Virus record (IMG/VR): IMGVR_UViG_3300032285_002007 | Span: 1-21,449 of that record | Length of the DNA stretch: 21,449 nucleotides | Strand: one strand, 5' to 3' | From: a virus | In this document: in pieces, positions 1,786 through 21,449 of the stretch | Position numbering within the stretch: the first letter of the stretch is position 1 | Layout: every line of letters starts with the position of its first letter | Position numbers and translations under genes: made by a program | The notes under the pieces: model-generated | What the model was told of the DNA's origin: nothing | Databases searched by the model: none | Seen by the model: only the letters and a program-made list of their open reading frames with translations

Positions 1786-1786
1786 T

Positions 1787-3760: not shown

Positions 3761-4229
3761 AGCATTTCGTTGGACACCTAGTGGTGGCAACACAATTAAC
3801 TCAGGTCCTATTGACGGAACATATATCCTAAACGGAAGCATCGGCGGTAGTAAGATCATTTCAGGTGATCCTGCCACAGTAGGAACAAAACAATCAAACG
3901 GTTTCTTTGACAATCTAGGAACCTATGCTATGGTTGCCCTAGCAGGAGCCACTGCCTATGGATTATGGAACAAATATGGTGCTGGCCTATTTGGCAGTGA
4001 TGATACTGAACAGGGTGGCGGCAATGATGGCATTCCTAATCCATTTAATCAATTCTTTCTAAGAGCAGAAACAATTCCAATTAATGATGATTACGAACCA
4101 ATAATGATAGCTGAAGAAAATAGTCCAACTAGATTTTTATTTGATACTACATTACCTCAACCTGAACCATATCTAGTTGCACAAAATGATGGATTTGATA
4201 TATTTGGCGACGGATGGGCAGAGGCATAA
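3750..4229 (+). CDS. Small virion-associated protein of unknown function (159 aa)
   Basis: The frame is open from 3648, but the start is placed at 3750 because GGAGG at 3736-3740 lies nine bases before this ATG. This overlaps the end of the J-like gene by 11 bp. The N-terminus (residues 1-50) is rich in Gly, Asn and Ser (FRWTPSGGNTINSGPIDG) and resembles short beta fibre-attachment stretches. Residues 55-74 (NLGTYAMVALAGATAYGLWN) form one possible membrane or hydrophobic helix. The C-terminal half is acidic (FDIFGDGWAEA end). It is not recognised. Position right after the J-like gene suggests a tip accessory or fibre-connecting protein, which is inference. Confidence 0.6.
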   Translation: MANRAFRWTPSGGNTINSGPIDGTYILNGSIGGSKIISGDPATVGTKQSNGFFDNLGTYAMVALAGATAYGLWNKYGAGLFGSDDTEQGGGNDGIPNPFNQFFLRAETIPINDDYEPIMIAEENSPTRFLFDTTLPQPEPYLVAQNDGFDIFGDGWAEA

Positions 4230-4232
4230 ACT

Positions 4233-5444: not shown

Positions 5445-5445
5445 T

Positions 5446-6063
5446 ATGAGCACCACTGCAACTACAACTACACTTTATCTAACATTTGGTGCGGCTGGCG
5501 GAATATGGGCAGGCAAGCCAAACACTGATACAGGTCCTGCAACCTTACGTAAAGAGCCTAGTGGAACTACTGATATGTTTTATCAAGCCGCCAGTGATAA
5601 TGATATAACAAAAACCAATTACAATGTTTTGGTAGTGACTTCTGGTGGCAAAATATTAAAAAGTCAAAGAAGTGGTAGCAATACTGGGACTTGGAGCACA
5701 GTATATACAGCCAGCACTCCATTATATGCATTAGCCACAGATGGCACTACATGGGTAGCTGGTGGAACAGGTAATAATATAGCAGTATCAGATAATACAA
5801 CTTCTTGGACACAAGGACAAGGCGCTGTTCTTGGAGCTACATGGAATTGGGCGGCCTATGGCAATGGTAAATTTGTCATGGTTGGATATAAAACTGTAAA
5901 TGGTGTTCGCCAAGGTGCAGTTCAATATTCTAGCAATGGAATAGGTTGGACTGAAGGTAACCCAGGCACAAAAAGTGTCCTACAATCAATTGCCTATAGT
6001 CCAACACTACAGATGTTTGTTGCAGTAGGTGCTAATGGTGCTACTGTTCAGGTTAAAGGATAA
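5446..6063 (+). CDS. Beta-propeller-like repeat protein (205 aa)
   Basis: At least three degenerate blades are visible: LYALATDGTTWVAGGTGNNIA with SDNTTSWTQG (about residues 89-124), WAAYGNGKFVMVGYKTVNG with QYSSNGIGWTEG (131-170), and LQSIAYSPTLQMFVAVGANG (182-201). An earlier GGKILKSQR-x9-WSTVY unit lies at about 64-83. The repeating logic (W or I-A-Y-G-N-G-x-F-V-x-V-G, then S-x-D/N-G-x-x-W) is that of BNR/sialidase-like propeller repeats, often found in phage and bacterial adhesins. No sialidase catalytic residues can be assigned. AGGA at 5435-5438 lies upstream of the start. It is likely exposed on the virion, which is inference from the surrounding fibre genes. Confidence 0.6.
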   Translation: MSTTATTTTLYLTFGAAGGIWAGKPNTDTGPATLRKEPSGTTDMFYQAASDNDITKTNYNVLVVTSGGKILKSQRSGSNTGTWSTVYTASTPLYALATDGTTWVAGGTGNNIAVSDNTTSWTQGQGAVLGATWNWAAYGNGKFVMVGYKTVNGVRQGAVQYSSNGIGWTEGNPGTKSVLQSIAYSPTLQMFVAVGANGATVQVKG

Positions 6064-6068
6064 ACAAA

Positions 6069-7883
6069 ATGGATTTTGAACCAGTCACACAAAACGGAAT
6101 TGACCCTCAAACAGAATATTTTATTTTGCCAAGTCGATTTGCATTAGCAGTTAGCACAACTACATTTGTTCGCACTCAAATAATAACACTAACTGCTTAT
6201 AGTGATGCACAGATTTATAAGCGTAAACCTGTAACATTTTATGCAAAAAATACTTCTACTGATGCAGTATCTGTTATTGGATCAGGCACATGGATTTCTA
6301 CTACCACATGTCAAATAAGAACAAGTAATGTGCCTGTTGATACTGGAGCTATCTATGCAAGTTGGCCAGGAGAATTAAAGTATGCTCCTAAATCAACTGA
6401 GCTTAATACAATACCTGTTACTATAATTCCGGGATATGCATTAGGTCGTGCTATTAATATGACTGCTACACCTAATCCTGTTGCCGTCAATGAAAATGTT
6501 ACATTAAGAGCAACTACCACTGCCAGTAATGCAATAACAAATGGTAGCAAAATAGATTGGTATGCTAATAGTATCAATATAGGTAATAGCACATTTAACT
6601 CAGGTGCAAGCGTCTTTACTGCAACTTTTGCATCAACTGGCACACAAAGCATTTACGGTATTTGGAATGGTGGATTATTAAATGGTTCTGCTTATCTTAG
6701 CCAACAAACTGCCAATACAGTTTCATTAGAGGTCAATGAACGTCAAACATTATCTGGTCAATTATTATTATCGGCCAATAAATCTGCAATAACAACTGCA
6801 GAATCTATTACATTTACTTCTATATTGAATACCACAACAATAGTTACAGGAACTACAGTAACATTTATTGGCGGAACTTCAACTGGATCTACTATTACAT
6901 CAGTAATAAGCCTGGTGGATAATATTGCCTCATTTACAATTCCCCCAAATACATTAACGTTGGGCAATTATACAATGACTGCAACATGGTCGGGTAGAAC
7001 TATTACACCTAAGTATTATCCAAAGACTTCTGATACTGTATATTTTACAGCACAAGTTCCACAAACTCCAAGTTTTGGATTAACAATTACACCATCAACA
7101 TATCGTCGATATGACAGCGCAGGAACAGCAAATCCAAGCACTATTGTTACAGCTACTATTGCAGTAGGAACAGGATGGGGAAGTCCGCATACTCCAACAG
7201 GAACTGTTAGTGTATATGATGTAGGAACAAATTCATTGTTAACATCAACTACTATAACAACATCTGGCACATATAATTTGACATGGAATCCTATAACTGC
7301 CAATCAATATCAACAAGGTGTAAGAACAATTCGTGCTGTTTATAACGGTGACAATTACAACACTTCTGCCACTACTACAGCTACATTCCGAGCATTAGGA
7401 TCTGATGCTGTTAATAATATTCAAGGACTGTATTCAATAGGCGGCACATTCCTCTACCCAGATGGAGGAAATGGATCTTATGGCGGAACGGGAGTTGTTC
7501 ACCTAACTACTTCGTCAACAGCTACCTGTTATACTACTGCAACATTTAAATGGGTTAATGCTAATACCAGTGCTACATATACTGCAACAAATCTAACCGG
7601 AACTATTACATTCTGGAGTAGATACATAGTGGACCCAGATAATGGTGGTGCTGATACTGCAAAAACAATTCCATATGTTCTTGGAACAGCTACATTGGTC
7701 AATAATGTCATAACTCCTATTAAGGTTGGATTCCGAATGGAACCGTATTATTATCCAGGACCAGCTTATGTATGGTGGGAATATAGCGGTAACTCGGTAT
7801 ATGAAGGTAAACATCCAACAGTTTACTTGGCAGGACAAGGTTACTATTCTGAGCAATCAAGTAACGTGTATATCAACAATTAA
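6069..7883 (+). CDS. Multi-domain bacterial Ig-like virion protein (604 aa)
   Basis: Four consecutive Ig-like beta-sandwich units can be traced at about residues 28-118, 129-222, 228-329 and 335-441. They share phrases such as MTATPNPVAVNENVTLRAT, then xxxIDWYAN, and for the fourth TPTGTVSVYD followed by IRAVYNGDNYNTS, which closely fits the Big_3/Big_5 family pattern (G-T-V-x-hydrophobic-x-D ... A-x-Y-x-G-D-x-x-Y). Residues 450-604 are a Tyr/Trp/Gly-rich C-terminal domain I do not recognise. Such Ig-like arrays decorate phage tails and capsids and are thought to bind weakly to carbohydrate. AGGATAAACAAA directly precedes the start. It is the last gene before a hairpin at 7896. Confidence 0.65.
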   Translation: MDFEPVTQNGIDPQTEYFILPSRFALAVSTTTFVRTQIITLTAYSDAQIYKRKPVTFYAKNTSTDAVSVIGSGTWISTTTCQIRTSNVPVDTGAIYASWPGELKYAPKSTELNTIPVTIIPGYALGRAINMTATPNPVAVNENVTLRATTTASNAITNGSKIDWYANSINIGNSTFNSGASVFTATFASTGTQSIYGIWNGGLLNGSAYLSQQTANTVSLEVNERQTLSGQLLLSANKSAITTAESITFTSILNTTTIVTGTTVTFIGGTSTGSTITSVISLVDNIASFTIPPNTLTLGNYTMTATWSGRTITPKYYPKTSDTVYFTAQVPQTPSFGLTITPSTYRRYDSAGTANPSTIVTATIAVGTGWGSPHTPTGTVSVYDVGTNSLLTSTTITTSGTYNLTWNPITANQYQQGVRTIRAVYNGDNYNTSATTTATFRALGSDAVNNIQGLYSIGGTFLYPDGGNGSYGGTGVVHLTTSSTATCYTTATFKWVNANTSATYTATNLTGTITFWSRYIVDPDNGGADTAKTIPYVLGTATLVNNVITPIKVGFRMEPYYYPGPAYVWWEYSGNSVYEGKHPTVYLAGQGYYSEQSSNVYINN

Positions 7884-7895
7884 AATTAGCAATAT

Positions 7896-7919
7896 CCAAC
7901 CCTCAAAATAGGGGGTTGG
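7896..7919 (+). terminator. Strong hairpin, possible terminator or processing site
   Basis: CCAACCCTC (7896-7904) pairs with GGGGGTTGG (7911-7919) over nine base pairs with one G-U pair and a six-base loop AAAATA. There is no U-tract after it, so intrinsic termination would be weak. It lies 13 bp after the Ig-like gene and one base before a TAAATA hexamer. Confidence 0.6.
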
Positions 7920-7920
7920 G

Positions 7921-7926
7921 TAAATA
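7921..7926 (+). promoter_or_regulatory. TAAATA hexamer, candidate late-promoter core
   Basis: The hexamer TAAATA follows the hairpin at 7896-7919 by one base and lies 50 bp upstream of the ATG at 7977. It is one of seven such hexamers found between genes or at gene heads. The T4-type late promoter consensus is TATAAATA; here only the last six bases match. Confidence 0.4.
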
Positions 7927-7930
7927 TGTG

Positions 7931-7953
7931 AGACGGCATGCTTTAGCATGTCT
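7931..7953 (+). other. Hairpin in the 5' leader of the downstream gene
   Basis: CATGC (7937-7941) and GCATG (7946-7950) form a five-bp stem with loop TTTA, extended by AGA/TCT across a three-base bulge. It is followed by TCTTCATTTT and then the TAGGAG ribosome-binding site at 7965-7970. It could be a second weak terminator or an mRNA-stabilising leader structure. Confidence 0.4.
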
Positions 7954-7976
7954 TCATTTTCCCTTAGGAGTATAAA

Positions 7977-8483
7977 ATGGCTGGTGTCTTAAACTTTTCC
8001 AATTATATCGGCGGCGCCGATAATATTCAGATCGAACAGATCTTTCCCTCTACACAACGAACTCTAGTTTACAATTATGGTCAAAACATATCAAACTGGA
8101 CATTCTATCTAGATTATCAAACAATCGTAGTTGATAGCCTAGCATTTGATCGCAACACAGGTGAACCTAATTTTGCCAATAGCAACGTTATTGGAGCCTT
8201 TTCAACAGGCACAATCAACACATCAACTTTTGTTAGTGTAATCTCAGCAAATTCTGGCACAGTGGGTATTACATTCCCTAAGAACATGTATTCAGGTCCT
8301 ATATTACCTGATGCAAGAGCACATACTCCAATCACTGTAGTTGGTGTAACTTGGACAGATGCTTCTACACCACCACAAACAAATACTCATCGCTGGGCAT
8401 TTATTCAAAGTTGGGAGCCAGGTGTTGCTCCGGGTGACCCTGTTTTAGCAAACGGATATACAGCAATTACTGTAGGAGCATAA
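7977..8483 (+). CDS. Probable structural protein, unknown (168 aa)
   Basis: The start has a good TAGGAG site at 7965-7970. The sequence is beta-rich, with a middle region FPKNMYSGPILPDARAHTP and a C-terminal HRWAFIQSWEPG. The opening (GVLNFSNYIGGADNIQIEQ, then NWTFYLDYQTIVVD) reads like the one-domain baseplate or fibre-base proteins that begin fibre operons, but I cannot name a family. It has its own leader with two hairpins and a TAAATA hexamer, so it probably heads a separate late transcript that carries the collagen fibres. Its stop is one base before the next start. Confidence 0.6.
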   Translation: MAGVLNFSNYIGGADNIQIEQIFPSTQRTLVYNYGQNISNWTFYLDYQTIVVDSLAFDRNTGEPNFANSNVIGAFSTGTINTSTFVSVISANSGTVGITFPKNMYSGPILPDARAHTPITVVGVTWTDASTPPQTNTHRWAFIQSWEPGVAPGDPVLANGYTAITVGA

Positions 8484-8484
8484 A

Positions 8485-9708
8485 ATGGCCTACACACTGA
8501 CTATTACTAATGTTAGTAATAATTTTACTGTTGCTCAACCTGACAATACTGTTGCTATTAGTCAGACCTCAACAGCCGTTACCATTAATCCAAATGCTAT
8601 TATTATTCAAACAAAGAATACAGCAGATACTTTTCGCGGTGAGTGGGCGGCAAATACTGTTTATTTTCGTGGCGATACTGCTACTTACGGTGGTGTTCTT
8701 TATCTAGCACGAAACAACGTAACCAGCGCAACAGTTCCGTCTACTGATACTACCAATTGGACACGTTATGTAGTTTCTACAACTACTTCAACATTTGCTA
8801 CTCTTACAGCCACTAATAAAATTGTTGCGGCATCAAGTGCTTCAATTGAATTTTTACATCCTACAGCATCAACTGCTAAGATTAGCGTTCCAACTACAGG
8901 TGACCTAAGTGGTGTCCTAGTTTTTACAGCCACCAGTATCAGACTTGTTACTCCTGGCACTTATGGTGTAACTTATATAGATGGTAGTGCCGAAGCTAAG
9001 AATGGTATCTATATTGATGGCCATTATAATGGCCAAGGTGCTCCATTAACCAGTGACGGAACACAAGTATATGATCGCGGTGATTTATATTTAGAAACAG
9101 GTAGCATGGCATTACAGTTTGGTAATGTCAATGTTCAACAAGGTCGCATCAATGTTCAGAATAACTTATTCCTAAGTAAGGATCCAAACGTAGCGGCTGG
9201 AACTATAACTGGCACAAACGTAACTATTGTTGCCGGCAATCAAATTACCTTAAACGAAAATACAAATGGACAGACTAAAGTCTATGGTGTATTGCGTGTT
9301 AATAATGGATTTACAGTTAATGCGGCTGGTGAAACTACCACTGCAAAAATAACATTCCCAGACAATACCACAATGACTACTGCTCCTACAGGTGGAGCAA
9401 CTACGGTCAATTACACAGGCATCACAGGCACAGGACAACAACAATTAGACAGTTTAGATACTACTGCCTATGACACAGCAAAATATTTTATTCGTGTCAA
9501 AGATGGTAGTAACTATCACATCACAGAAATAGTCATTTTTTATGACGGAACGGATGTTGGCTTTAGCCAATATGGTATTATTACCAACAACAGCACACTT
9601 GGAACATTCACTGCAGATAAGAATGGATCAAATGTAAGATTGCTATTCACTCCAAGTGGAGCGACTTCAATGTCAATTAGAGTAGCTAAAACACCAATGG
9701 CTTTATAA
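8485..9708 (+). CDS. Tail fibre with carbohydrate-binding-like N-terminal module (407 aa)
   Basis: Residues 51-93 (RGEWAANTVYFRGDTATYGG, then LYLARNNV-x13-NW) follow the W-x3-x-x-Y-x-x-G-D-x-x-x-Y-x-G-x-L-Y-x-A-x(n)-W signature of chitin-binding type 3/CBM5-12-like modules common in phage fibres. Residues ~284-300 carry ITFPDNTTMTTA, the typical hinge before fibre heads. Residues ~317-407 (TAKYFIRVKDG, QYGIITNNSTLG, NVRLLFTP) form a terminal domain also present at the end of the 9731 gene. TAGGAG at 8473-8478 fixes the start. Likely role: receptor-binding or side-fibre protein. The sugar ligand is unknown. Confidence 0.7.
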   Translation: MAYTLTITNVSNNFTVAQPDNTVAISQTSTAVTINPNAIIIQTKNTADTFRGEWAANTVYFRGDTATYGGVLYLARNNVTSATVPSTDTTNWTRYVVSTTTSTFATLTATNKIVAASSASIEFLHPTASTAKISVPTTGDLSGVLVFTATSIRLVTPGTYGVTYIDGSAEAKNGIYIDGHYNGQGAPLTSDGTQVYDRGDLYLETGSMALQFGNVNVQQGRINVQNNLFLSKDPNVAAGTITGTNVTIVAGNQITLNENTNGQTKVYGVLRVNNGFTVNAAGETTTAKITFPDNTTMTTAPTGGATTVNYTGITGTGQQQLDSLDTTAYDTAKYFIRVKDGSNYHITEIVIFYDGTDVGFSQYGIITNNSTLGTFTADKNGSNVRLLFTPSGATSMSIRVAKTPMAL

Positions 9709-9730
9709 GCCAACAACACGGAGCAATTAG

Positions 9731-11473
<1,743 letters not shown>

Positions 11474-11480
11474 ACGCAAT

Positions 11481-11497
11481 GGGGGTGAAAAGCCCCC
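11481..11497 (+). terminator. GC hairpin between the two collagen-like genes
   Basis: GGGGG (11481-11485) pairs with CCCCC (11493-11497) around loop TGAAAAG, followed by TCTAAATTTTATT. It fills the 61-bp gap between the two collagen-like genes. The A/T tail is interrupted, so it is a plausible but not ideal intrinsic terminator; it may attenuate transcription rather than end it. Confidence 0.55.
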
Positions 11498-11534
11498 TCT
11501 AAATTTTATTCCTTAAGTGGATATGGAAACTTAA

Positions 11535-13111
<1,577 letters not shown>

Positions 13112-13112
<1 letters not shown>

Positions 13113-14077
13113 TGGCATTAGGTCCTAAAGCACTTGGTAATAATCCTAATACGGATCCCTACTACGAATCTACGATTGTTAATTTAAATTTTGAAAACAA
13201 TCTAAATGATTTAAGTCCAAAGAAAAGAACTTGGAATACTATCAATGCGGGTGTTCAGCCAGCTTATACCGCTACCAATACATTGTTTGGTAGTGCCAGT
13301 TATCATATTCCATTAGTTTATGCGGCTAATAGTTGCACAGACATTGTAACAACTTCCGGACTTAGTGATTTTGCTCATCCTAGCAATAAATTTACTTTTG
13401 AAATTTGGTGGTATCCAACTGCTGTAAGTAGTGGCGTGCTCAACGGCTATGATAGAACTGGCACCAGTTATGAATATTTTGGTGGGTGGTATGATCAAGA
13501 AGGTGTTGCTTATAGTTCTACTGCTCCAAATTGGATGGCCTACAATGATCACGGCAGAATATGCTATTGGTATAGAGGTAACTCAGTTCCCTTAGATAAT
13601 ACTTTATCTGGCGGATGGTATGGACCTAGACAGCCAGGAGATACTCGTGCTAAATCAGGAACTCCAGGAACAAGTCGTCCCCTTGATGGTAGTCCAGCCA
13701 GTGATCAAACTGGCGGCGCACAATATGTTGGTGTAAATATGTGGAATTGGATTGTTATCCAACAATGGGATACAGCCGCAGGTTCCGCTACCGCCAAGCA
13801 AGGTGTAAAAACTTATATCAATGGTAAACTACACAATATCAATAGTTCAGCCAATGCAACTGCTTATTCTACACCTGCCAGCTTAGGTGTATTGCTAGGT
13901 TCTTGGTTTAATACCAGTAATTATACTGCGGCATCAGCCAGCGAGCCTGCTGGCAATAGATATAATGCCTGTGGATATTTTGACGGATTTAGATTAACTA
14001 ACGGTGTTATTCGTTATGATAACCTAGGAACTGGTAGTGATACAATTCCTGTGCCTAAAGCACCACCATTACCATAA
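13112..14077 (+). CDS. Concanavalin A/LamG-like lectin-domain virion protein (321 aa)
   Basis: The protein follows the LamG/concanavalin A-like plan: NLNFENNLNDLS near the N-terminus, FGSASYHIP, a FTFEIWWYPT strand (about residues 93-102), then WNWIVIQQW, TYINGKLHN, LGVLLGSW and the closing YFDGFRLTNGVIRYDN (about 288-303). These are the standard landmarks of this fold in environmental phage structural proteins. The fold binds sugars or mediates protein contacts. The start overlaps the preceding stop (TAATG at 13110-13114) and follows AGAGGA. It lies right after the collagen fibres, so it is probably a fibre-associated or receptor-binding lectin. The ligand is unknown. Confidence 0.75.
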
Positions 14078-14086
14078 GGAGTTTAT

Positions 14087-14293
14087 ATGCAAATAATATA
14101 TCGTGTTGAATTCCTAGATAAGGAACCAGAAAGTTATACAGTAGAATCTACAGAAGATGCTATTGATCAATATATTCATGATACACATCCAGACCTACAT
14201 GGATTTCATTGGCATCCTATAGACAATCCTAAACCTGAAGATTGTTATATCTGTCAAGGTATCACACATTTAGAATGGAAAATGGGACAATGA
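14087..14293 (+). CDS. Small protein of unknown function (68 aa)
   Basis: AAGGAG at 14076-14081 lies just before the ATG and the TGA overlaps the next ATG (ATGA 14290-14293), so translation is supported. Visible features are an N-terminal beta segment (QIIYRVEFLDKEPESYTVES) and a C-terminal C53-x2-C56 pair in PEDCYICQGITHLEW, with several His residues at 32-43. A metal site is possible but incomplete. No family recognised. Confidence 0.65.
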   Translation: MQIIYRVEFLDKEPESYTVESTEDAIDQYIHDTHPDLHGFHWHPIDNPKPEDCYICQGITHLEWKMGQ

Positions 14294-14544
14294 GCATAGA
14301 AACAATTGAACAAGAAAGCGAAGATTTGCCAACTCATGTAAGTCTTTGCGCTCAACGCTATCACGAATTAGAAAGTCGATTGGACAAAGTAGAACTTCGT
14401 CTTGATGAACTTGCCACTATGGTTAAGGAATATATCAAGACCACTAGGATTACAATCATCCAAGCAGTGGCGGCTATATTAGTTGCTGGTATTGGTGCCA
14501 CTGCTACTATCGTTGGTGTAATCATAAATCACCCATTGAAATAA
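14290..14544 (+). CDS. Holin/XhlA-like coiled-coil and membrane-anchor protein (84 aa)
   Basis: The frame is open from 14242, but ATG 14290 gives an ATGA overlap with the previous gene and is preferred. Residues 20-50 are a charged amphipathic helix (YHELESRLDKVELRLDEL), typical of a coiled coil. Residues ~53-78 (ITIIQAVAAILVAGIGATAT) form one clear transmembrane segment, with a short HPLK tail. The layout, short cytoplasmic coiled coil then one C-terminal membrane span, is that of XhlA-type hemolysin/holin accessory proteins and many phage lysis proteins. No endolysin gene is in this window, so the lysis role rests on topology and size. Confidence 0.6.
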   Translation: MSIETIEQESEDLPTHVSLCAQRYHELESRLDKVELRLDELATMVKEYIKTTRITIIQAVAAILVAGIGATATIVGVIINHPLK

Positions 14545-14550
14545 CCAAAA

Positions 14551-14564
14551 CACCTAAATAGGTG
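14551..14564 (+). promoter_or_regulatory. TAAATA hexamer inside a short inverted repeat
   Basis: CACCTAAATAGGTG has arms CACCT/AGGTG around the centre; TAAATA occupies 14555-14560. The ATG of the following gene comes five bases after the hexamer. The same CCTnAATAGG context recurs at 16965-16974. Confidence 0.45.
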
Positions 14565-14565
14565 T

Positions 14566-14928
14566 ATGGATCTTAATCAACTTATCGAATTCATTAAACC
14601 CTTTGCTGAATATAGAATTGGCACGGATAAGATATTAGAAAATCGCGGCGGTAAATCTAAACCTAAAAAATGTATGCCTCTTGAACTCAACGAGTTTGAT
14701 GAGCCCGTTGAAGAATTACCAGAAGAATTACCAGAACCCTTAAATGGATATCTAGTGGTAACCAAATGGTTACACGAACAGCCGGAAAACATGTGCGGAC
14801 ATTTTAGTAAAATGGCCTATCAGCGCACACTAGAAGGATGGAAACCCTATTGTCAAAAGTGTGGCCGAGAAAGATGGGCCAAGCTAAATAAAATAGCAAC
14901 AACGCTTGCCCAACAAGCGGATCTATAG
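14566..14928 (+). CDS. Zinc-ribbon-like small protein (120 aa)
   Basis: Residues 75-100 carry C77-G-H79 and C96-x2-C99 (MCGHFSKMAYQR, PYCQKCG), a spacing compatible with a zinc ribbon that could bind nucleic acid or support protein contacts. The centre is acidic and Pro/Glu-rich (FDEPVEELPEELPEPLNG, 44-61). There is no Shine-Dalgarno site at normal distance: the ATG is five bases after TAAATA. The next in-frame ATG is at residue 37, which would still keep the Cys motif, so the start is uncertain. No family assigned. Confidence 0.55.
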   Translation: MDLNQLIEFIKPFAEYRIGTDKILENRGGKSKPKKCMPLELNEFDEPVEELPEELPEPLNGYLVVTKWLHEQPENMCGHFSKMAYQRTLEGWKPYCQKCGRERWAKLNKIATTLAQQADL

Positions 14929-14980
14929 ATTGCCATTCGGTAGGTCAGTTGTATTTCCTATACTCCATGTAAATGGTTTA

Positions 14981-15011
14981 GAAACCCTAGTAATTCCCTT
15001 GCTAGGGTTTC
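14981..15011 (+). terminator. Ten-bp hairpin, intrinsic-terminator-like
   Basis: GAAACCCTAG (14981-14990) pairs perfectly with CTAGGGTTTC (15002-15011) over an 11-base loop, followed by ATCTTTTGC. It is the first of three hairpins in the 237-bp gap after the zinc-ribbon-like gene and a good end for that transcript. Confidence 0.65.
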
Positions 15012-15028
15012 ATCTTTTGCAAACTAGA

Positions 15029-15034
15029 TAAATA
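15029..15034 (+). promoter_or_regulatory. TAAATA hexamer between two terminator-like hairpins
   Basis: GATAAATA lies 18 bp after the 14981-15011 hairpin and six bp before the next one. If it is a promoter, its transcript would meet the 15040 hairpin almost at once, so it may be a pause site, a remnant or unused. Confidence 0.3.
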
Positions 15035-15039
15035 TTCTT

Positions 15040-15060
15040 GTCCATGAAGGTGGACTTTTT
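15040..15060 (+). terminator. Short intrinsic terminator
   Basis: GTCCA (15040-15044) pairs with TGGAC (15051-15055) around loop TGAAGG and is followed at once by five Ts. The stem is short, but the hairpin-plus-U-run form is classical. Confidence 0.55.
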
Positions 15061-15080
15061 CCTAAATCTCAGTTGTCGGT

Positions 15081-15109
15081 TCCCCCTAAGTTGGCATGGC
15101 TTAGGGGGA
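15081..15109 (+). terminator. Ten-bp GC-rich hairpin upstream of the glycosyltransferase gene
   Basis: TCCCCCTAAG (15081-15090) pairs perfectly with CTTAGGGGGA (15100-15109) with a nine-base loop, followed by TTTCTATTTCC. It is very stable. It insulates the downstream glycosyltransferase gene from upstream transcription, or is a leader element if transcription starts earlier. Confidence 0.6.
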
Positions 15110-15141
15110 TTTCTATTTCCAGCCAATTTTTTACTGGTGCT

Positions 15142-15149
15142 TATAAATA
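15142..15149 (+). promoter_or_regulatory. Full TATAAATA, T4-type late-promoter-like element
   Basis: TATAAATA is an exact match to the T4-type late promoter octamer and is the best copy in the window. It is followed by an AGAGGA ribosome site (15155-15160) and the ATG at 15166, giving a short normal leader. Whether a gp55-like late sigma factor exists in this phage cannot be seen here. Confidence 0.55.
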
Positions 15150-15165
15150 CACTGAGAGGAAACTT

Positions 15166-16257
15166 ATGAGTGATTTAAAGATTTGTGTTTATGCCATATG
15201 TAATGGCGAAGTAGATTTTGTTCCACGCTTTATGGAAGGTGCAAAAAGTGCAGACCTAGTCCTAGTTTGCGATACAGGTAGCACTGACGGTGCTGGTGAC
15301 AAACTCCGTGAACTAGGTGCAACGGTTTATGATATTTCAGTCAAGCCTTGGCGCTTTGATGATGCCCGCAATATTGCACTAGGACTTGTTCCAACTGATA
15401 TAGATGTCTGTATGAGCTTGGACATTGATGAAGTCCTGCAACCAGGATGGCGTGAAGAAATAGAACGTGTTTGGCGGAAAGGTGAAACCAATAGACTCAA
15501 ATACAAGTTTGATTGGGGTGCTGGTATCGCTTTCTATTATGACAAGTGTCATGCACGTCATGGATTCCGTTGGCGCAACATGTGTCACGAAGCAGTTTAC
15601 CCAGACCCTCGCACACAAGAAGTTTGGGCACAAACAGATGAGCTCCTAGTAATCCATATGCCAGACAACAGCAAAAGCCGTGGTCAATATATGAGTCTGC
15701 TAGAACATGATGTCAAAGAAAATCCATGGAATGCTCGAAATGCCTTTTATCATGCACGTGAATTAGGCTTTCATCGTCGTTGGCAAGAAAGCATAGCCGC
15801 AGTAGATCGCTATTTGGCCTTGCCAGATGCAACTTGGGTTAATGAAAGGTGTTATGCACTCCGAGTGAAGGGTAGAGCATACGATGAACTAGGTGATGGC
15901 GAAAACGCCTTAAAAGCCTTCAGATTGGCCACAATTGAGGCTCCAAATACACGAGAACCATGGGTAGATCTTGCGGAATCTTGCTATAAGAAAAGTTTGT
16001 GGGATGAATGCTATCTTAGTGCTGTTCGTGCTCTTAAGATTACCAATCGCGAAGATGTCTACACAGTGGATCCAGAATGCTGGGGATTTAAACCCTATGA
16101 CCTAGCGGCCATTGCGGCTTGGAATATGGGCATGAGAGAGAAAGCAGTTGAATATGGAACTTTGGCAAAACAAGCGGATCCAACCAATGAACGGCTAAGC
16201 GTTAATTTGCTTTGGTATTTGGGCGAGAAAAAAATCCAAGATATTGACAGTGAATAA
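15166..16257 (+). CDS. GT2-type glycosyltransferase with TPR-like C-terminus (363 aa)
   Basis: The frame is open from 15073, but that part covers the hairpin at 15081-15109; ATG 15166 has AGAGGA six bases upstream and a TATAAATA before it. Residues 5-110 are a GT-A fold of family 2: KICVYAICNGEVDF, CDTGSTDG (35-42, nucleotide-sugar loop), WRFDDARN (62-69) and the DxD metal motif in SLDIDE (D86, D88). These are the landmarks of SunS-like and related GT2 enzymes. The C-terminal ~170 residues are helical and repetitive (DELGDGENALKAFRLA, WVDLAESCYK, AAWNMGMREKAVEYG), TPR-like, a layout of enzymes that recognise protein acceptors. The acceptor is unknown; fibres, DNA or a host surface are possible. 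Confidence 0.8.
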   Translation: MSDLKICVYAICNGEVDFVPRFMEGAKSADLVLVCDTGSTDGAGDKLRELGATVYDISVKPWRFDDARNIALGLVPTDIDVCMSLDIDEVLQPGWREEIERVWRKGETNRLKYKFDWGAGIAFYYDKCHARHGFRWRNMCHEAVYPDPRTQEVWAQTDELLVIHMPDNSKSRGQYMSLLEHDVKENPWNARNAFYHARELGFHRRWQESIAAVDRYLALPDATWVNERCYALRVKGRAYDELGDGENALKAFRLATIEAPNTREPWVDLAESCYKKSLWDECYLSAVRALKITNREDVYTVDPECWGFKPYDLAAIAAWNMGMREKAVEYGTLAKQADPTNERLSVNLLWYLGEKKIQDIDSE

Positions 16258-16272
16258 CAACCAGTGTATAAT
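16244..16272 (+). promoter_or_regulatory. Exact-consensus sigma70-type promoter
   Basis: TTGACA (16244-16249), a spacer of exactly 17 bp, and TATAAT (16267-16272) are all consensus. Transcription would start near 16279, leaving a ~25-base leader before the ATG at 16304. The -35 lies in the last codons of the glycosyltransferase gene. It should be read by unmodified host RNA polymerase. Confidence 0.8.
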
Positions 16273-16303
16273 TAAAAGTATAGGCAATCAAGGGAACATC
16301 ATT

Positions 16304-16597
16304 ATGGCAAATAAGCAATCACACGAAATCATACCATCAGGCAAATATAAAGGATGGTCAGTCGGACAAGTTCCGGGAGACTATCTTTCATGGCTTAGAA
16401 CATATGGCAAAGGCTCCTACTTGTATAATTGGTTTTACAATATTAAAACACCTAAAAAACAAAAGCAAAGGCACAAACAAGTTGGCGGAAATCAACCCGC
16501 TCAGGGGGCTAAAACAGGGCCCGTCCATAGTCCTAAATTATTTCGTGTTAGAACGAATGCAGATGGGACTACCACAAGAATAGAAGTTCCTAGGTAA
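16304..16597 (+). CDS. Small DUF3820-like protein (97 aa), moron-like
   Basis: ATG 16304 is chosen because it lies just downstream of the predicted transcription start and after AGGGAA (16291-16296); the open frame extends to 16244 but would overlap the promoter. Residues ~10-34 (IPSGKYKGWSVGQVPGDYLS, then WLRTYGKG) match the GKYKG-x(4-6)-P-x-x-YL-x-W-hydrophobic signature of DUF3820-type and exonuclease X C-terminal-type small domains, whose biochemical role is not established. The remainder is basic and low in complexity (KTPKKQKQRHKQ), suggesting nucleic-acid contact. It stands alone with its own strong promoter and a possible terminator at 16729-16762, like a moron gene. Early expression during infection is inferred. 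Confidence 0.65.
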   Translation: MANKQSHEIIPSGKYKGWSVGQVPGDYLSWLRTYGKGSYLYNWFYNIKTPKKQKQRHKQVGGNQPAQGAKTGPVHSPKLFRVRTNADGTTTRIEVPR

Positions 16598-16697
16598 CGG
16601 TCTAACAAACCTAACCTAATGCGGTGCCCATAAATGAGGGTTGGTGAAAAGTCGTGAAATAGACGCAGGGATAAAATTTCTTTCTTGGGAGGCAGAG

Positions 16698-16768
16698 ACA
16701 GCCAAGGACATAAACACAGTAGTGTGATAAACTATCGTCTCCTTAGTTTCGGTCATTTTTTTGGCTGT
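16698..16768 (+). ncRNA. Candidate three-way-junction RNA fold with embedded terminator-like arm
   Basis: ACAGCCAA (16698-16705) pairs perfectly with TTGGCTGT (16761-16768), enclosing ACAC-AGTA-GTGT (16714-16725) and AAACTA/TAGTTT (16729-16734 with 16744-16749). Seven Ts at 16756-16762 follow the second arm, so the same segment could alternatively act as a terminator for the 16304 transcript. The closing stem and the T-run overlap, giving two mutually exclusive states, as in attenuators. Confidence 0.4.
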
Positions 16769-16966
16769 TGCTAGGTTATGACTGTTAAATGAGATAAGAT
16801 GATTTGTATATGACAACATCAGTTTGCTAAAGCAAACCGCTGTTCTTAGATGCGAAGTGGCATCGTGGCTTACGCCACTTACCCCTTACACATCACGAAA
16901 TGGACTGCGTCAAAAAAAATGTGTTGAGCACTTGTGCGAAAACACGGACGAATGTAAATTCGTCCT

Positions 16967-16972
16967 TAAATA
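16967..16972 (+). promoter_or_regulatory. TAAATA hexamer upstream of the HNH-relic-like gene
   Basis: It lies one base after the perfect eight-bp hairpin 16946-16965 and within GTCCT-TAAAT-AGGAC. AGGA at 16972-16975 and the ATG at 16984 follow. Confidence 0.4.
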
Positions 16973-16983
16973 GGACTAATAAA

Positions 16984-17421
16984 ATGAATAGAGCAAAACA
17001 CCCCTTATACATGCGCCATTATATGATCATGAAGCGTTGCTATGACGAAAATAGCCAGTATTATGACACAGCAGGTGCTAATGGACTTACAGTTGCACGT
17101 CGATGGCACAATATGGACAACTTCTTTGCTGATATAGAAGATCAATGGGGATTACCACCCTCTCCTTATGCCCAATTAGCACGTAAGGATCCACACAAAG
17201 GATGGTATCCTAGCAACATAGCAGGATGGGAAGATCACAAGTTTGTTGCACGTCATCGCAGAGATAATCTAAACATTACCTATAAAAAGCGCACACAGAC
17301 TCTAGCTGAATGGAGCCAAGAATTAGGCATACCAGCAGGCACGATATGGAGTCGTCATGAAAAAGGCAAAAGCATTGAAGAATGTTTTGGATTTAAGAAT
17401 GGTGATAGGAGATGCAAATGA
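16984..17421 (+). CDS. HNH/AP2-type phage homing-endonuclease relative lacking a clear HNH centre (145 aa)
   Basis: ATG 16984 is preferred over the upstream ATG at 16900, which lies inside the hairpin region; AGGA is eight bases before 16984. Residues 17-50 (KRCYDENSQYYDTAGANGLT, then ARRWHNMDNFFADI) follow the RCYNPxxxxYxxYGGRGIxVCxRW-x-FxxFxxDM pattern of small phage HNH-type proteins. The usual DRIDNxxxYxPxNCRW catalytic segment is replaced by LARKDPHKGWYPSNIAGW. Residues 105-135 (TLAEWSQELGIPAGTIWSR, ...EECF) match the C-terminal helix-turn-helix of the same family. It is probably DNA-binding, possibly without nuclease activity. Its ATGA end overlaps the next start. Confidence 0.6.
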   Translation: MNRAKHPLYMRHYMIMKRCYDENSQYYDTAGANGLTVARRWHNMDNFFADIEDQWGLPPSPYAQLARKDPHKGWYPSNIAGWEDHKFVARHRRDNLNITYKKRTQTLAEWSQELGIPAGTIWSRHEKGKSIEECFGFKNGDRRCK

Positions 17422-18050
17422 AGAATATAACTCTAGTGGTCATTGACACACTTAACTATCGTGCAACTGAGTGGGCAGTTGGTCAAACACGCAAGATATT
17501 TCCTGACAGTCCCCTATTGGTAGCCAGTGATCAAGAGTTTATGCCCTCAGATACATTTGTGGAATTGGACATCAAGTTAGACAAGTATTCGCACTCACGT
17601 GCCTGTTTAGACATTGGCCAGTTTGTTGAAACAGACCATGCCTTATTCATACAGCATGATGGCTTTCCAGTTAGACCTGAACTATGGCGTGATGAGTTCC
17701 TTGAATATGACTACATAGGTGCTCCTTGGACAGGTAAGCCAGAAGAACGTAGTGTGGGCAATGGAGGCTTTAGTCTGCGTTCAAAACGGCTATTAAACCT
17801 AACACCACACTTGCCACAGGACACAGATAAGTCACATGAATATTGGTTAGAAGATGGTATGATTGGCATGATATTCCGCCCTTGGTTAGAGCGCAATGGA
17901 TGCCGTTTTCCACACTCCGATCTAGCACATAAATTCAGCCATGAACATCCATTTGGCCCTTATGAAGATAGTTTTGGATTCCACGACAAGCGTAATGCAG
18001 AACATTTTCTATCACCCGAGCTATACGAGGAATGGTTAAACTGTTATTGA
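17418..18050 (+). CDS. DUF5672-domain, glycosyltransferase-like protein (210 aa)
   Basis: Two in-frame ATGs exist, 17412 and 17418; 17418 is chosen because TAGGAG at 17406-17411 then sits at proper distance and an ATGA overlap with the upstream gene is formed. Landmarks are NITLVVIDT at the N-terminus, LFIQHDGFPVRPELW (76-90), DEFLEYDYIGAPW (92-104), VGNGGFSLRSKRLL (113-126) and EDGMIG (145-150). This is the DUF5672 signature, a family found in sugar-modifying loci and related to GT-A glycosyltransferases. Enzymatic activity is not proven for the family. With the GT2 gene 1.2 kb upstream, it forms a probable sugar-transfer module. Confidence 0.75.
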   Translation: MKNITLVVIDTLNYRATEWAVGQTRKIFPDSPLLVASDQEFMPSDTFVELDIKLDKYSHSRACLDIGQFVETDHALFIQHDGFPVRPELWRDEFLEYDYIGAPWTGKPEERSVGNGGFSLRSKRLLNLTPHLPQDTDKSHEYWLEDGMIGMIFRPWLERNGCRFPHSDLAHKFSHEHPFGPYEDSFGFHDKRNAEHFLSPELYEEWLNCY

Positions 18051-18075
18051 CAACAACCAAAATGTCATGTAAAAT
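18047..18075 (+). promoter_or_regulatory. Near-consensus sigma70-type promoter
   Basis: TTGACA (18047-18052), a 17-bp spacer and TAAAAT (18070-18075, five of six matches). The -35 overlaps the final codons of the DUF5672 gene, just as the promoter at 16244 overlaps the end of the GT2 gene. Both contain ACAACCA in the spacer. Transcription would start near 18082. Confidence 0.7.
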
Positions 18076-18087
18076 TACAAGTGTTAA

Positions 18088-18093
18088 TAAATA
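18088..18093 (+). promoter_or_regulatory. TAAATA hexamer just before a GTG start
   Basis: AATAAATA ends four bases before the in-frame GTG at 18098. This repeats the layout at 14555 and 19947, where an ATG follows TAAATA by five bases. It also lies downstream of the sigma70-type promoter at 18047. Confidence 0.35.
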
Positions 18094-18097
18094 CATT

Positions 18098-18427
18098 GTG
18101 AAACAAAAACGCCAAATATTCAAAACTCGCAAATATCAGGACCCGCTTCTGCACATGAGATATAATCCATTTCTACGCAGTCGTGCCCAGGCCTGGTATC
18201 TGCTACAGGAATGGACTTTGGAATTTGAGGATTACTGCACCCTATGGACAGTAGATCGTTGGTATTGCCGGGGAAGAGGCATCGGAGATCTAGTTATGGT
18301 GCGTAAAGATGTAGAGAAAGGTTGGACATTAGAAAATTGTGAAATCGTTACTCGCAAAGAACAACTGCGTAGAACACGATTCCGTGAACATGGAAAAGGG
18401 AAAAATCTAAATGGCACATCAGGTTAA
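18098..18427 (+). CDS. Second small HNH-relic-like protein (109 aa)
   Basis: The frame is open from 18032, but that ATG lies inside the DUF5672 gene and upstream of the promoter at 18047-18075; GTG 18098 is the first start after the predicted transcript start, with ATG 18155 as an alternative. Residues 47-83 (with WTVDRW, LVMVRKDVEKGWTLENCEIV and TRKEQLRRTR) match the final part of small phage HNH-type proteins, in which xKDxxxGWTxENCEIVTxxEQxRxTR follows the finger. No His-Asn-His centre is evident. It shares this family affinity with the 16984 product, so the two flank the DUF5672 gene. Function may be DNA-binding only. Confidence 0.55.
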   Translation: MKQKRQIFKTRKYQDPLLHMRYNPFLRSRAQAWYLLQEWTLEFEDYCTLWTVDRWYCRGRGIGDLVMVRKDVEKGWTLENCEIVTRKEQLRRTRFREHGKGKNLNGTSG

Positions 18428-18767
18428 ATTAACACGCAACCATCAGCGTATTCTGTTGGAAGCTCTGGCTATCAGTCAGGAAATTAAAGAAAAGAAACTA
18501 CGCAATCCAGACAGTCGTAGACGCATGGATGAAGAGTATTACAAGGCCGCTAAACGTCTTATAGACGAACCTGCTATAGAATGTGGACGAGCAGGACACA
18601 AACCTGGCGACAATCTATTTGCTTGGATACGTGATCAGTTTTACCACTCAGGTGATTTTGTTGAAACTGAATTTGGTCGTCTGGCAGTCAACATCTGCGA
18701 AGCCGCCGGAGACAATGCTTATGAGGGCTATTGCCGCATGACCATTATGAATAGGCTATTTGAATAA
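18411..18767 (+). CDS. Small protein of unknown function (118 aa)
   Basis: The gene overlaps the preceding one by 17 bp, has GGAAAAGGG at about 18391-18399, and its TAA overlaps the next ATG (TAATG at 18765-18769). The sequence is charged and helical (HQRILLEALAISQEIKEKKL, RRRMDEEYYKAAKRLIDE), with a C-terminal half containing GDNLFAWIRDQFYHSGDF and two Cys residues. There are no membrane segments. No family recognised. The coupling indicates co-expression with the following coiled-coil gene. Confidence 0.6.
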   Translation: MAHQVKLTRNHQRILLEALAISQEIKEKKLRNPDSRRRMDEEYYKAAKRLIDEPAIECGRAGHKPGDNLFAWIRDQFYHSGDFVETEFGRLAVNICEAAGDNAYEGYCRMTIMNRLFE

Positions 18768-19000
18768 TGTTTAACAACTACGACCCCTACGAAGAAATAG
18801 AACGCTTAAAAGCAGAAGTCATGCAGTTGCGCAACAATGATCATCAGATAGCACTGGGACACAATGGACTTCGTGATCAAGTGCAGAGCATAGACAACAA
18901 ACAAGAACAAATATTGGTAGCCATGCGCCTGCTGGAAGGCCAATTAAAATTAATGGAAGCCCGACTAAACATGTGGCTAGAAACTGTGAGGATAAAATGA
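18767..19000 (+). CDS. Small coiled-coil protein (77 aa)
   Basis: Almost the whole protein is predicted helix with heptad-like hydrophobics (EEIERLKAEVMQLRNN, DQVQSIDNKQEQILVAMRLL, EGQLKLMEARLNMWLE). There is no transmembrane segment. TAATG and ATGA overlaps link it to both neighbours. It could be a scaffold, chaperone or oligomerisation factor. No family recognised. Confidence 0.6.
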   Translation: MFNNYDPYEEIERLKAEVMQLRNNDHQIALGHNGLRDQVQSIDNKQEQILVAMRLLEGQLKLMEARLNMWLETVRIK

Positions 19001-19179
19001 CTAAAAAAGAAACAACCACCAAAGCGGCCTATTGGATCCGCATTGATATCGTGGACAATGGATCAGCTACATATCACTATGAAAACAAACGTATGGCCTA
19101 TGAACACTGGCTAATGCTACGCACACAAGGCGTGACATTTGGGCAGATCATCAAAAATATCGAGACTAACTTAGAATGA
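18997..19179 (+). CDS. Small protein of unknown function (60 aa)
   Basis: ATG 18997 is chosen over 18973 because it gives the ATGA overlap and is preceded by GAGG at 18987-18990. The sequence begins MTKKETTTKAAYWIRIDIVD, then YHYENKRMAYEHWLMLRTQG, a mixed beta-helix pattern without a recognisable motif. ATGA at 19176-19179 couples it to the methyltransferase gene. Confidence 0.55.
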   Translation: MTKKETTTKAAYWIRIDIVDNGSATYHYENKRMAYEHWLMLRTQGVTFGQIIKNIETNLE

Positions 19180-19748
19180 CATTAGAAGAACTTTATCAAT
19201 CAGGTGTAGATCAATGGGGTGGCACACCCACAAGTTTTACAGACAAAGGCACAGACCACGACTACCTAGGCTTTTACACAGATCGTTTTAAAGATCGCAA
19301 GAACAAACGCCTGCTGGAAATAGGCATATCCAGTGGCGGAAGTGCTTGGTTATGGTCAAAATGGTTTGAATCCAGTGAAATTGTAGGAGTGGATATTGCC
19401 AGTGGATTCCATACACCTCGCGATTTCCAAACGGATATTGATGCTAAATTTATCTGGAACTTTGACAGCACACACGCCAATAGCTATCTACGCTTAGAGG
19501 GTGATTTTGACTATATCATAGATGATGGCGATCACAGCCCTGCAACACAGTTGGCTACCTGCCGTCAAGCATGGCCCCTACTCAAACAGGGTGGCTTATA
19601 TATTATAGAAGACTTGACAAACTTGCCCACAGCACAAGCAGTTAAGAAGGAACTAGAAAGCCGTTATGGACAAGAATGGGTTATATTTGCTGGAGAACGT
19701 TACCCTAATAGACAGGATGATATTATCTTATGGACAATTAAACTATGA
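19176..19748 (+). CDS. Class I SAM-dependent methyltransferase (190 aa)
   Basis: Motif I is LLEIGISSGGSAWLW (46-60, glycine-rich SAM loop), followed by EIVGVDI with acidic D73 (ribose contact), DYIIDDGDHSPATQ (112-125) as motif IV-like, and LLKQGGLYIIEDL (135-147). This is the layout of small methyltransferases related to MycE/cephalosporin-hydroxylase-type (Methyltransf_24-like) enzymes, which often methylate sugars or small molecules. No DNA-methyltransferase DPPY motif is present. It ends the accessory operon with a 49-codon gene overlapping it, and could modify sugars added by the upstream transferases. The substrate is inferred only. Confidence 0.75.
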   Translation: MTLEELYQSGVDQWGGTPTSFTDKGTDHDYLGFYTDRFKDRKNKRLLEIGISSGGSAWLWSKWFESSEIVGVDIASGFHTPRDFQTDIDAKFIWNFDSTHANSYLRLEGDFDYIIDDGDHSPATQLATCRQAWPLLKQGGLYIIEDLTNLPTAQAVKKELESRYGQEWVIFAGERYPNRQDDIILWTIKL

Positions 19749-19894
19749 TAGACCCTAAACCCAACCTATCACCAGCAGGCATCAAAGCCAATATAGAACA
19801 CTATGAAGCACTGGTGGCACAAAGCAAAGATGCATGGCAACAACATGTAGAACAACTACAGTATTGGCTAGACCAACTTGAAACTGTAGAATAA
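19745..19894 (+). CDS. Very small helical protein (49 aa)
   Basis: ATG 19745 overlaps the TGA of the methyltransferase gene (ATGA) and the frame is open to TAA 19892-19894. The product (MIDPKPNLSPAGIKANIEHY, then EALVAQSKDAWQQHVEQLQY, WLDQLETVE) is a plausible amphipathic helix pair. Its coupling and coherent coding make it likely real. It is followed by the terminator at 19913. No family recognised. Confidence 0.55.
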   Translation: MIDPKPNLSPAGIKANIEHYEALVAQSKDAWQQHVEQLQYWLDQLETVE

Positions 19895-19912
19895 TCAGTC
19901 ATAGACTGTTTT

Positions 19913-19937
19913 AGCCCACTTTACCGTGGGCTTTTTT
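19913..19937 (+). terminator. Textbook rho-independent terminator
   Basis: AGCCCAC (19913-19919) pairs with GTGGGCT (19926-19932) around loop TTTACC, with six Ts from 19932. It closes the accessory operon ahead of the terminase genes. Confidence 0.9.
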
Positions 19938-19946
19938 GTGTCCTGT

Positions 19947-19952
19947 TAAATA
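19947..19952 (+). promoter_or_regulatory. TAAATA hexamer directly before the small terminase gene
   Basis: GTTAAATA ends five bases before the ATG at 19958, nine bases after the T-run of the terminator. The gene has no Shine-Dalgarno sequence between. If the hexamer is a promoter, the mRNA would be leaderless or nearly so. Confidence 0.45.
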
Positions 19953-19957
19953 ACAAC

Positions 19958-20356
19958 ATGGACACCACTGAGAATATTCCCACCCCTAGAAAGAAAACAG
20001 GACCCAAGCCTAAACAGCTGACTGAGAAAGTAGTATTAGGACTGCCTGTCGGGCGCGATAAGAAAGTAGTCCCACCTGATGAAGTCTACAAATTAGCGGC
20101 CTTGGGCTGTAAGAATATAGAAATTGCAGACTGGTTTGGAGTCAGTGAAGATGCCATCAGCAGGAATTTCGCCGCAGAACTGATAAAAGGTCGTAGTGCA
20201 GTAAAGATCAGTCTACGCCGTGCCATGCTTAATAATGCATGCCAGAATATGAGTGCGGCTGTGCAGATATTCCTAGCCAAGAATATGCTGGGCATGAGTG
20301 ACAATCCAATGGACAGTGATGCCAATACCCCACTGCCTTGGAGCGATGACGAGTAA
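19958..20356 (+). CDS. Terminase small subunit (132 aa)
   Basis: A basic N-terminus (PRKKTGPKPKQ) is followed by a helix-turn-helix at about 43-73 (YKLAALGCKNIEIADWFGVS, then EDAISRNF) and an oligomerisation segment SLRRAMLNNACQ-x-MSAAVQIFLAKNMLGM (85-113), typical of small terminase subunits that recognise packaging sites and load the large subunit. The next in-frame ATG is at residue 90, so 19958 must be the start despite the missing ribosome site. Its TAA overlaps the ATG of the large terminase gene. Confidence 0.8.
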   Translation: MDTTENIPTPRKKTGPKPKQLTEKVVLGLPVGRDKKVVPPDEVYKLAALGCKNIEIADWFGVSEDAISRNFAAELIKGRSAVKISLRRAMLNNACQNMSAAVQIFLAKNMLGMSDNPMDSDANTPLPWSDDE

Positions 20357-21449
20357 TGCCCCTAAGCACCGCGCAAGCAGAAATAGTAGCCAGCCCACAC
20401 AGATTTAAAGTAGTAGTGGCTGGTCGACGCTTTGGTAAAACGCATCTAGCCATCCGTGAACTGTGTTTTCACGCTAGACAACCTGATCGTGAAATATGGT
20501 ATGTGGCACCTACATACAAACAGGCCAAGATGATTGCATTTAAGAGTCTACGCAAGCGACTCTTACAATTACGCTGGGTCAGCAAGATAAATGAAACTAA
20601 CCTCAGTTTTGAACTCAAGAATGGATCTACTATAAGTCTCAAAGGTGCTGACAATTATGATAGTCTGCGTGGTATCGGCCTTGACTTCCTCGTGCTCGAT
20701 GAGTTTGCAGACATTGACCCCGAAGCCTGGTATGAAACTCTACGCCCCACCCTGTCCGATAAGCAGGGATCAGCCTTGTTTATCGGAACACCCAAGGGCA
20801 TGAACTGGGCACATGATCTATGGACTAACAGCCAAGCATACCCTGATGAATGGGCCAGTTTCCAATACACTACAATAGATGGGGGCAATGTCAAGCCAGA
20901 AGAAGTAGAAGCCGCCCGTAGAACGCTAGATGAACGCACATTTAAACAAGAGTATGAAGCTACCTTTGAAACATTCTCAGGACGTGTATTCTACGCATTT
21001 GACCGTAAGAAGAATATCCGCACATGGACTCCACCTGAGGATCTCAAGTTAGCGGACATACACATAGGCATTGATTTCAACGTGGATCCCATGTGTGCAG
21101 TGATATTTGTCAAGCTGAATAACGTGCTTTGGGCCATAGATGAAGTCAAGATCTATGGTAGCAACACAGATGAGTTGGTAGAAGAAGTTAAAACACGTTA
21201 TCCTAACAAAAAGATATTTGCCTACCCTGATCCTGCTGGTAGCCAACGTAAGACTTCAGCGGGTGGACGCACTGATCACACTATTCTACGCATGGCTGGA
21301 TTCACTGTGATAGCACCATATGGACACAATGCCATACGTGATGGTGTCAACGCCGTTAATGCTAAACTCTGCTCATCTAGTGGTGAAATAAGCCTATACA
21401 TAGACCCCAAGTGTAAATATGTAATTGAATGTTTAGAGAAACAGACATA
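20356..21449 (+). CDS. Terminase large subunit, 5' 364 codons (partial)
   Basis: ATG 20356 overlaps the preceding stop (TAATG) and the frame is open to the window edge. Walker A is VAGRRFGKTH (21-30, K28, T29), Walker B DFLVLDEFADI (110-120, D115, catalytic E116), the coupling motif FIGTPKG (142-148), and the nuclease domain begins with HIGIDFNVDP (236-245, D240) and AYPDPAG (289-295, D292), two of the RNase H-like metal ligands. This is the ATPase/endonuclease motor that packages DNA into the prohead. The C-terminal nuclease residues lie outside the window. Confidence 0.92.
   Translation, partial: MPLSTAQAEIVASPHRFKVVVAGRRFGKTHLAIRELCFHARQPDREIWYVAPTYKQAKMIAFKSLRKRLLQLRWVSKINETNLSFELKNGSTISLKGADNYDSLRGIGLDFLVLDEFADIDPEAWYETLRPTLSDKQGSALFIGTPKGMNWAHDLWTNSQAYPDEWASFQYTTIDGGNVKPEEVEAARRTLDERTFKQEYEATFETFSGRVFYAFDRKKNIRTWTPPEDLKLADIHIGIDFNVDPMCAVIFVKLNNVLWAIDEVKIYGSNTDELVEEVKTRYPNKKIFAYPDPAGSQRKTSAGGRTDHTILRMAGFTVIAPYGHNAIRDGVNAVNAKLCSSSGEISLYIDPKCKYVIECLEKQT

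Follow-up and report, generated by a model that had tools for sequence, protein, structure and literature searches.

The DNA analysed here (the window, 21,449 nt, positions 1 to 21,449 of IMG/VR record IMGVR_UViG_3300032285_002007) carries tailed-phage genes for tail proteins, collagen-like tail fibres, glycosyltransferases, an HNH endonuclease, a putative TerS and TerL. The TerL presents 53% identity to the TerL of DSL-LC06, a lake phage, and about 50% to those of Pelagibacter phages. A gap of 386 bp (16598-16983) separates the ORF at 16244-16597 from the HNH gene, which begins at 16984, and lies 3.4 kb upstream of terL. A first-pass annotation had described this gap as gene-free, and we indeed found no conserved gene in it. 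The HNH protein is 145 aa long and its matches are plain phage HNH families, while no relatives of it could be confirmed in IMG/VR. An in-frame ATG is found at 16900, upstream of the annotated HNH start, but 16920-16965 is RNA hairpin. Neither ARAGORN nor Rfam led to any tRNA or tmRNA in the 21-kb window. The features of the locus are collected in Table 1.

Table 1. Features of the gene-free gap and its surroundings (window coordinates).
Feature	Position	Strand	Remark
Sigma-70 promoter TTGACA-17-TATAAT, 12/12	16244..16272	+	Overlaps the end of the glycosyltransferase gene
Leader ...TATAGGCAATCAAGGGAACATCATT then ATGGCAAATAA	16273..16300	+	Visual comparison with relatives' leaders
98-aa ORF between promoter and RNA	16301..16597	+	Weak QSregVF_b (PF12843) match just below the Pfam cut-off
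Structured noncoding RNA, type C	16598..16970	+	Coding content not detected
5' hairpin, GCCC/GGGU core in window	16624..16645	+	97% of cells paired; longer in homologues
Core closing helix, 5' strand	16650..16657	+	Pairs with 16776-16783
Invariant TAGACGCAGGGAT	16660..16672	+	Mostly hairpin loop; the homologues have another stem than the window
Pseudoknot stem a, 5' strand GAGAC	16695..16699	+	Pairs with 16737-16741
Pseudoknot stem b, 5' strand AGCCA	16700..16704	+	Pairs with 16762-16766; inside the earlier-proposed closing stem
Pseudoknot stem a, 3' strand GTCTC	16737..16741	+	Pairs with 16695-16699
Pseudoknot stem b, 3' strand TGGCT	16762..16766	+	Pairs with 16700-16704
Core closing helix, 3' strand	16776..16783	+	Pairs with 16650-16657
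Hairpin GTTTGC-TAAA-GCAAAC (hpA)	16822..16837	+	T-A to C-G in homologues' counterpart
Adjacent hairpin pair GATGC/GCATC and GTGGC/GCCAC	16849..16878	+	One longer hairpin in homologues, by inspection
Tandem-GA hairpin TGTGTT-GA-GCAC..GTGC-GA-AAACACG	16920..16946	+	3' module of most RNA types at the locus
Terminal 8-bp hairpin GGACGAAT/ATTCGTCC	16946..16965	+	G-C, A-T and T-A at one position among homologues
HNH endonuclease gene, phrog_3377	16984..17421	+	First gene 3' of the RNA; non-adjacent in homologues

About half of the gap (16613-16800) recurs at the same locus in six further distinct phage sequences, which together with the window make up the type C set. Three of them (L110, L127 and L133) were found among TerL-fetched loci and three (L153, L155 and L159) were added by a pattern scan. 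The homologues match with 72-74% DNA identity across about 125 nt, and their counterpart stretches are gene-free and established at the corresponding place. All seven sequences fit the type C sequence and structure profile, with covariance model (CM) scores of 126-232 bits against a model of which they are themselves part. The best-conserved stretches are mostly loop sequences (TAGACGCAGGGAT, AGACAGCCAAGG, ATAAACA and GGCTGTTGCTAG), while in the 3' half the sequence has diverged among homologues and the series of hairpins is kept. DNA searches with type C gave no match in INPHARED and PLSDB, and a pattern search of bacterial genomes returned two matches, both probably due to chance by our estimate. 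A minus-strand ORF of 67 aa inside the gap (16616-16819) could be taken as the trace of a decayed protein gene, an explanation of negligible probability: the homologues contain stop codons in each of the six frames, with 2-6 stops per minus frame of the core, and differ by indels of 1 and 8 nt, which are not multiples of three, so the gap is no gene. The existence of a conserved noncoding structured RNA at this position is well supported by the sequence comparison.

Concerning the fold, RNAalifold and direct pair counts were applied to the seven type C sequences. In the predicted stems 96.3% of the cells are paired, against 25-42% with the partners slid. The closing helix (98% paired) shows consistent one-sided changes in four pairs, and pseudoknot stem a carries a compensatory change from G-C to C-G in L133. 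The individual stems noticed in the first-pass annotation are all present (ACAGCCAA/TTGGCTGT at 16698-16705/16761-16768, the hairpins at 16822-16837 and 16946-16965, and the stem 16855-16861/16874-16880). Its three-way junction was not retained as such: the pairing of the proposed closing stem stands, but a pseudoknot within a longer helix fits better than a junction. The inner fold is thus given here as a pseudoknot enclosed by the longer closing helix, an arrangement that is plausible rather than proven.

The folding energy of the gap (z = -3.4) is equalled by none of 100 shuffles, but for coding controls taken from the window z lies anywhere between 0.0 and -3.4. The core alone (16609-16789) has z = -0.5 and the tail (16915-16983) z = -4.6. 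Because coding controls are equally good, the MFE z-score was dropped as main evidence; the energy is ambiguous and the comparative evidence decisive. Compensatory changes among the homologues, such as the three pair types at one position of the terminal hairpin and the pair swap in hpA, favour the RNA that the first-pass annotation had proposed. In the core there is a two-sided change in one pair and consistent one-sided changes in several, but its covariation score is reached by 71 of 500 shuffles, a formally weak result because all but one of the seven type C sequences are close relatives.

The locus was linked across terL relatives by all-against-all comparison of gene-free gaps, and an RNA of type A, B or C was found there in 17 of 29 distinct terL-relative contigs. 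Types A and B have a common 5' motif (ACAAGGTTGRCGGGCC...AATACCGYTG), are approximately 400 nt long and occur in dozens of IMG/VR contigs, T4-like and giant ones included (contigs of 217 and 349 kb among them). The type A/B patterns matched 67 and 50 IMG/VR stretches, and nhmmer bears out the relationship for most of these, in many cases across 250-420 nt; as these loci were pattern-selected, conservation of the patterns is by construction, that of the remaining sequence is not. Type B has two-sided changes in 28 of its 52 consensus pairs (29 non-redundant sequences). The loci that carry this strongly covarying type A/B RNA include L185, L193, L195, L209, L222, L253 and L260. Types A and B are absent from Rfam, and blastn detected neither in 50,697 INPHARED phage records. 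Outside the terL setting they adjoin SbcC/SbcD and phrog_447 genes, a neighbourhood which we take to be associated with T4-like phages.

Type C shows no homology to types A/B by nhmmer --max or by two covariance models. It shares with them the terL-clade locus and the 3' tandem-GA hairpin, not profile or CM similarity, and the closing-helix letters common to C and A/B (AAGGUU...UGACU.GAAA) are only suggestive. The types are instead linked by the locus, by the promoter and leader arrangement and, mostly, by the 3' tandem-GA hairpin. Of 22 RNAs covering types A to E, 14 have this 3' hairpin with its pair of facing GA steps, where shuffled sequences would give 0.4; the number of independent events is lower than 14 because the 22 RNAs include close relatives. 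The region upstream of the RNA has 93% identity across 93 nt between L133 (type C) and L134 (type B), after which the two contigs continue with different RNAs, as cassette exchange would predict. Further structured gene-free stretches were seen in L073 (2190-2545) and L077 (4050-4440), termed type D, and in L085 (3112-3560), termed type E, with z = -5.9 to -8.7; they follow small related genes at the locus. In L129 (5977-6711) and L081 (2951-3703) a protein gene takes the RNA's place, preceded by a similar terminator and leader, and neither replacement protein matches a family.

The position of the gap relative to terL, next to an HNH gene, would also suit a DNA element, such as a cos/pac site, a recombination site or a replication origin. 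However, compensatory changes and conserved loops are signatures of RNA, and terS has a gap of its own upstream (19749-19957). Since some A/B copies are found in contexts with no nearby terminase match, a packaging site is disfavoured, and we hold a DNA element of any of these kinds to be very unlikely.

The strong host-type promoter claimed earlier was confirmed, with both hexamers intact, and it is the sole perfect sigma-70 promoter within the scanned 1500-21449. By visual comparison the leader that follows resembles those which relatives have 5' of the RNAs or of the gene that replaces them (AGGCAAACATGGCAAA in L134, ATGGCAAATAAACAA in L129), and the A/B-type RNAs of L196 and L209 are likewise preceded by 12/12 promoters. 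Among the A and B relatives of the clade, several have an intrinsic terminator before the start of the unit, whereas the terminator-like hairpins of the window precede the glycosyltransferase gene. No convincing intrinsic terminator was found on the + strand at the 3' end of the RNA. As the 98-aa ORF is located upstream in the same predicted transcript and such a terminator was not detected, a role borne by the mRNA has to be weighed: the RNA may be a structured 3' UTR of the mRNA of this ORF, processed from it or merely stabilising it. An ORF does lie between the promoter region and the RNA in the window and, as another gene, in L073, L077 and L085, but the ORF of the window is unrelated to those three, and in most A, B and C relatives the ORF is very short or absent, which makes a 3' UTR decidedly unlikely. 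Relatives of the 98-aa ORF could not be confirmed in INPHARED or IMG/VR. Its C-terminus GAKTGP (window 16490-16597) resembles an ORF of approximately 22 codons (GVKTGP...) directly 5' of the homologues' RNA (L110 6200-6270, L127 7142-7208; out of frame in L133). A further structured element was observed just 5' of the RNA unit in four relatives (L127:6967-7077, L133:6928-7036, L110:6015-6124 and L134:3085-3193), resembling the Rhizobiales sRNA Atu_At1 (RF02496) with 48-56 bits (E-values 9e-7 to 4e-5), slightly short of the gathering score (60); the window has no such element.

The terminal hairpin ends 18 nt 5' of the HNH start codon and the window has competing pairings, as would be expected from a cis-acting leader or attenuator governing the HNH gene and those that follow. 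The first-pass annotation had proposed two exclusive states as in an attenuator, built on the overlap of its closing stem with a seven-T run. None of the six homologues has these Ts, all of them showing an A-run instead, and the attenuator thereby loses its basis. The gene located 3' of the RNA also varies, being the HNH gene in the window, a 105-aa gene in L127 and a small ORF in L110, and A/B-type RNAs adjoin unrelated genes, at some loci with the downstream gene on the opposite strand. Since the neighbours vary, a leader for a single gene is disfavoured and appears unlikely.

When the window was compared with Rfam by cmscan, no family rose above noise and only chance-level matches were obtained, in agreement with the earlier remark that the RNA fits no known family. 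The models of GOLLD and ROOL gave no match either, at E-values up to 5 for the window and up to 10 for the relatives. GOLLD is a large and strongly structured RNA of phages and prophages, whose expression is reported to rise in phage lysis, and ROOL, likewise from phages and prophages, contains pseudoknots and has no protein partner known so far (PMC12286853). Like GOLLD, type C is phage-borne, large, strongly structured and less conserved in one part than in the other; the variable part, however, is the 5' region in GOLLD and the 3' array in type C, which is about half as long as many GOLLD RNAs and has no tRNA in its window. With ROOL it has in common a phage origin, a pseudoknot and the lack of a known protein partner, but ROOL is often found near tRNA islands, of which there are none in the 21-kb window. 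A further trait that marks out GOLLD is its assembly into a homo-oligomeric RNA cage. Type C is of the general kind of GOLLD and ROOL, yet fails both models, and is best filed as an RNA class of its own, new also in its arrangement. Part of this RNA set may already be an unnamed candidate in earlier screens of viral metagenomes for structured RNAs.

The adjoining HNH gene also recalls self-splicing introns and the guide RNAs of small mobile nucleases, HEARO and the IscB omega-RNA being structured RNAs directly 5' of an HNH gene. Such an identity is extremely unlikely here: even with relaxed E-value limits Rfam detected neither a group I or group II catalytic core nor HEARO in the window, the HNH protein is a short one rather than an IscB (RuvC+HNH), and in the relatives HNH is unlinked. 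Three resemblances were also set aside. A hammerhead-like reading of UGAG..CGAAA was rejected by eye, having neither the CUGA strand nor the cleavage site, an HDV-like double pseudoknot is similar in strand order at first sight but the window has no P4-like hairpin, and a P7-like pairing as in group I introns, towards the core's 3' end, was rejected because the spacer of L110 is too short.

In our reading, to which we assign a probability of roughly 60% as a whole, the product of the gap is a noncoding phage RNA some 370 nt long, made up of a pseudoknotted core and, 3' of it, an array of hairpins. This RNA would be transcribed from a host sigma-70 promoter as an accessory unit and would act separately in trans, not as the leader of the gene that follows. 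Host RNA polymerase would transcribe it, in this phage together with the 98-aa ORF, most likely early or constitutively. After any processing from that transcript, the RNA may fold compactly and act through its shape on a host or phage target, in the manner of GOLLD and ROOL. Placed between the terminase genes and those for tail fibres and glycosyltransferase, the unit would be accessory cargo with a role in host takeover or counter-defence; we infer this role from the exchange with a protein gene, and it is the weakest step of the proposal. Phage morons are independently transcribed accessory insertions, and the unit resembles them in its own promoter, in the upstream terminator of the relatives and in the swappable content at one site, but its cargo is mostly structured RNA and not a protein gene.

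To our knowledge, phages have so far yielded no more than a handful of large structured RNAs. The RNA class described here, outside Rfam, comes with a sequence set from one locus, compensatory helices, strong predicted promoters and natural swaps, and the features common to the swapped RNA and protein cargoes may offer a way to its function. Types A/B seem to be common in environmental phages. With other folded RNAs or a protein gene found at the same locus in relatives, an exchangeable slot for phage RNAs is suggested. More tentatively, and with somewhat less than even odds, the slot may be a widespread one in which large structured RNA effectors without recognisable sequence kinship (A/B, C, D or E) or a protein are exchanged behind a host promoter, with the common 3' tandem-GA module mostly kept. 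Its RNAs would then be counterparts of host-takeover or counter-defence genes, and A/B a further major class of large phage RNAs beside GOLLD and ROOL.

Three other sites of the window deserve mention. A cluster of three terminator-like hairpins is located at the start of the glycosyltransferase gene (14928-15110), possibly marking the end of the tail operon. A further near-perfect sigma-70 promoter (18047-18075, 11/12) lies among the genes between HNH and terS. Finally, the gene-free gap just 5' of terS contains a terminator-like hairpin (19913-19932) and has a folding energy of z = -2.8.
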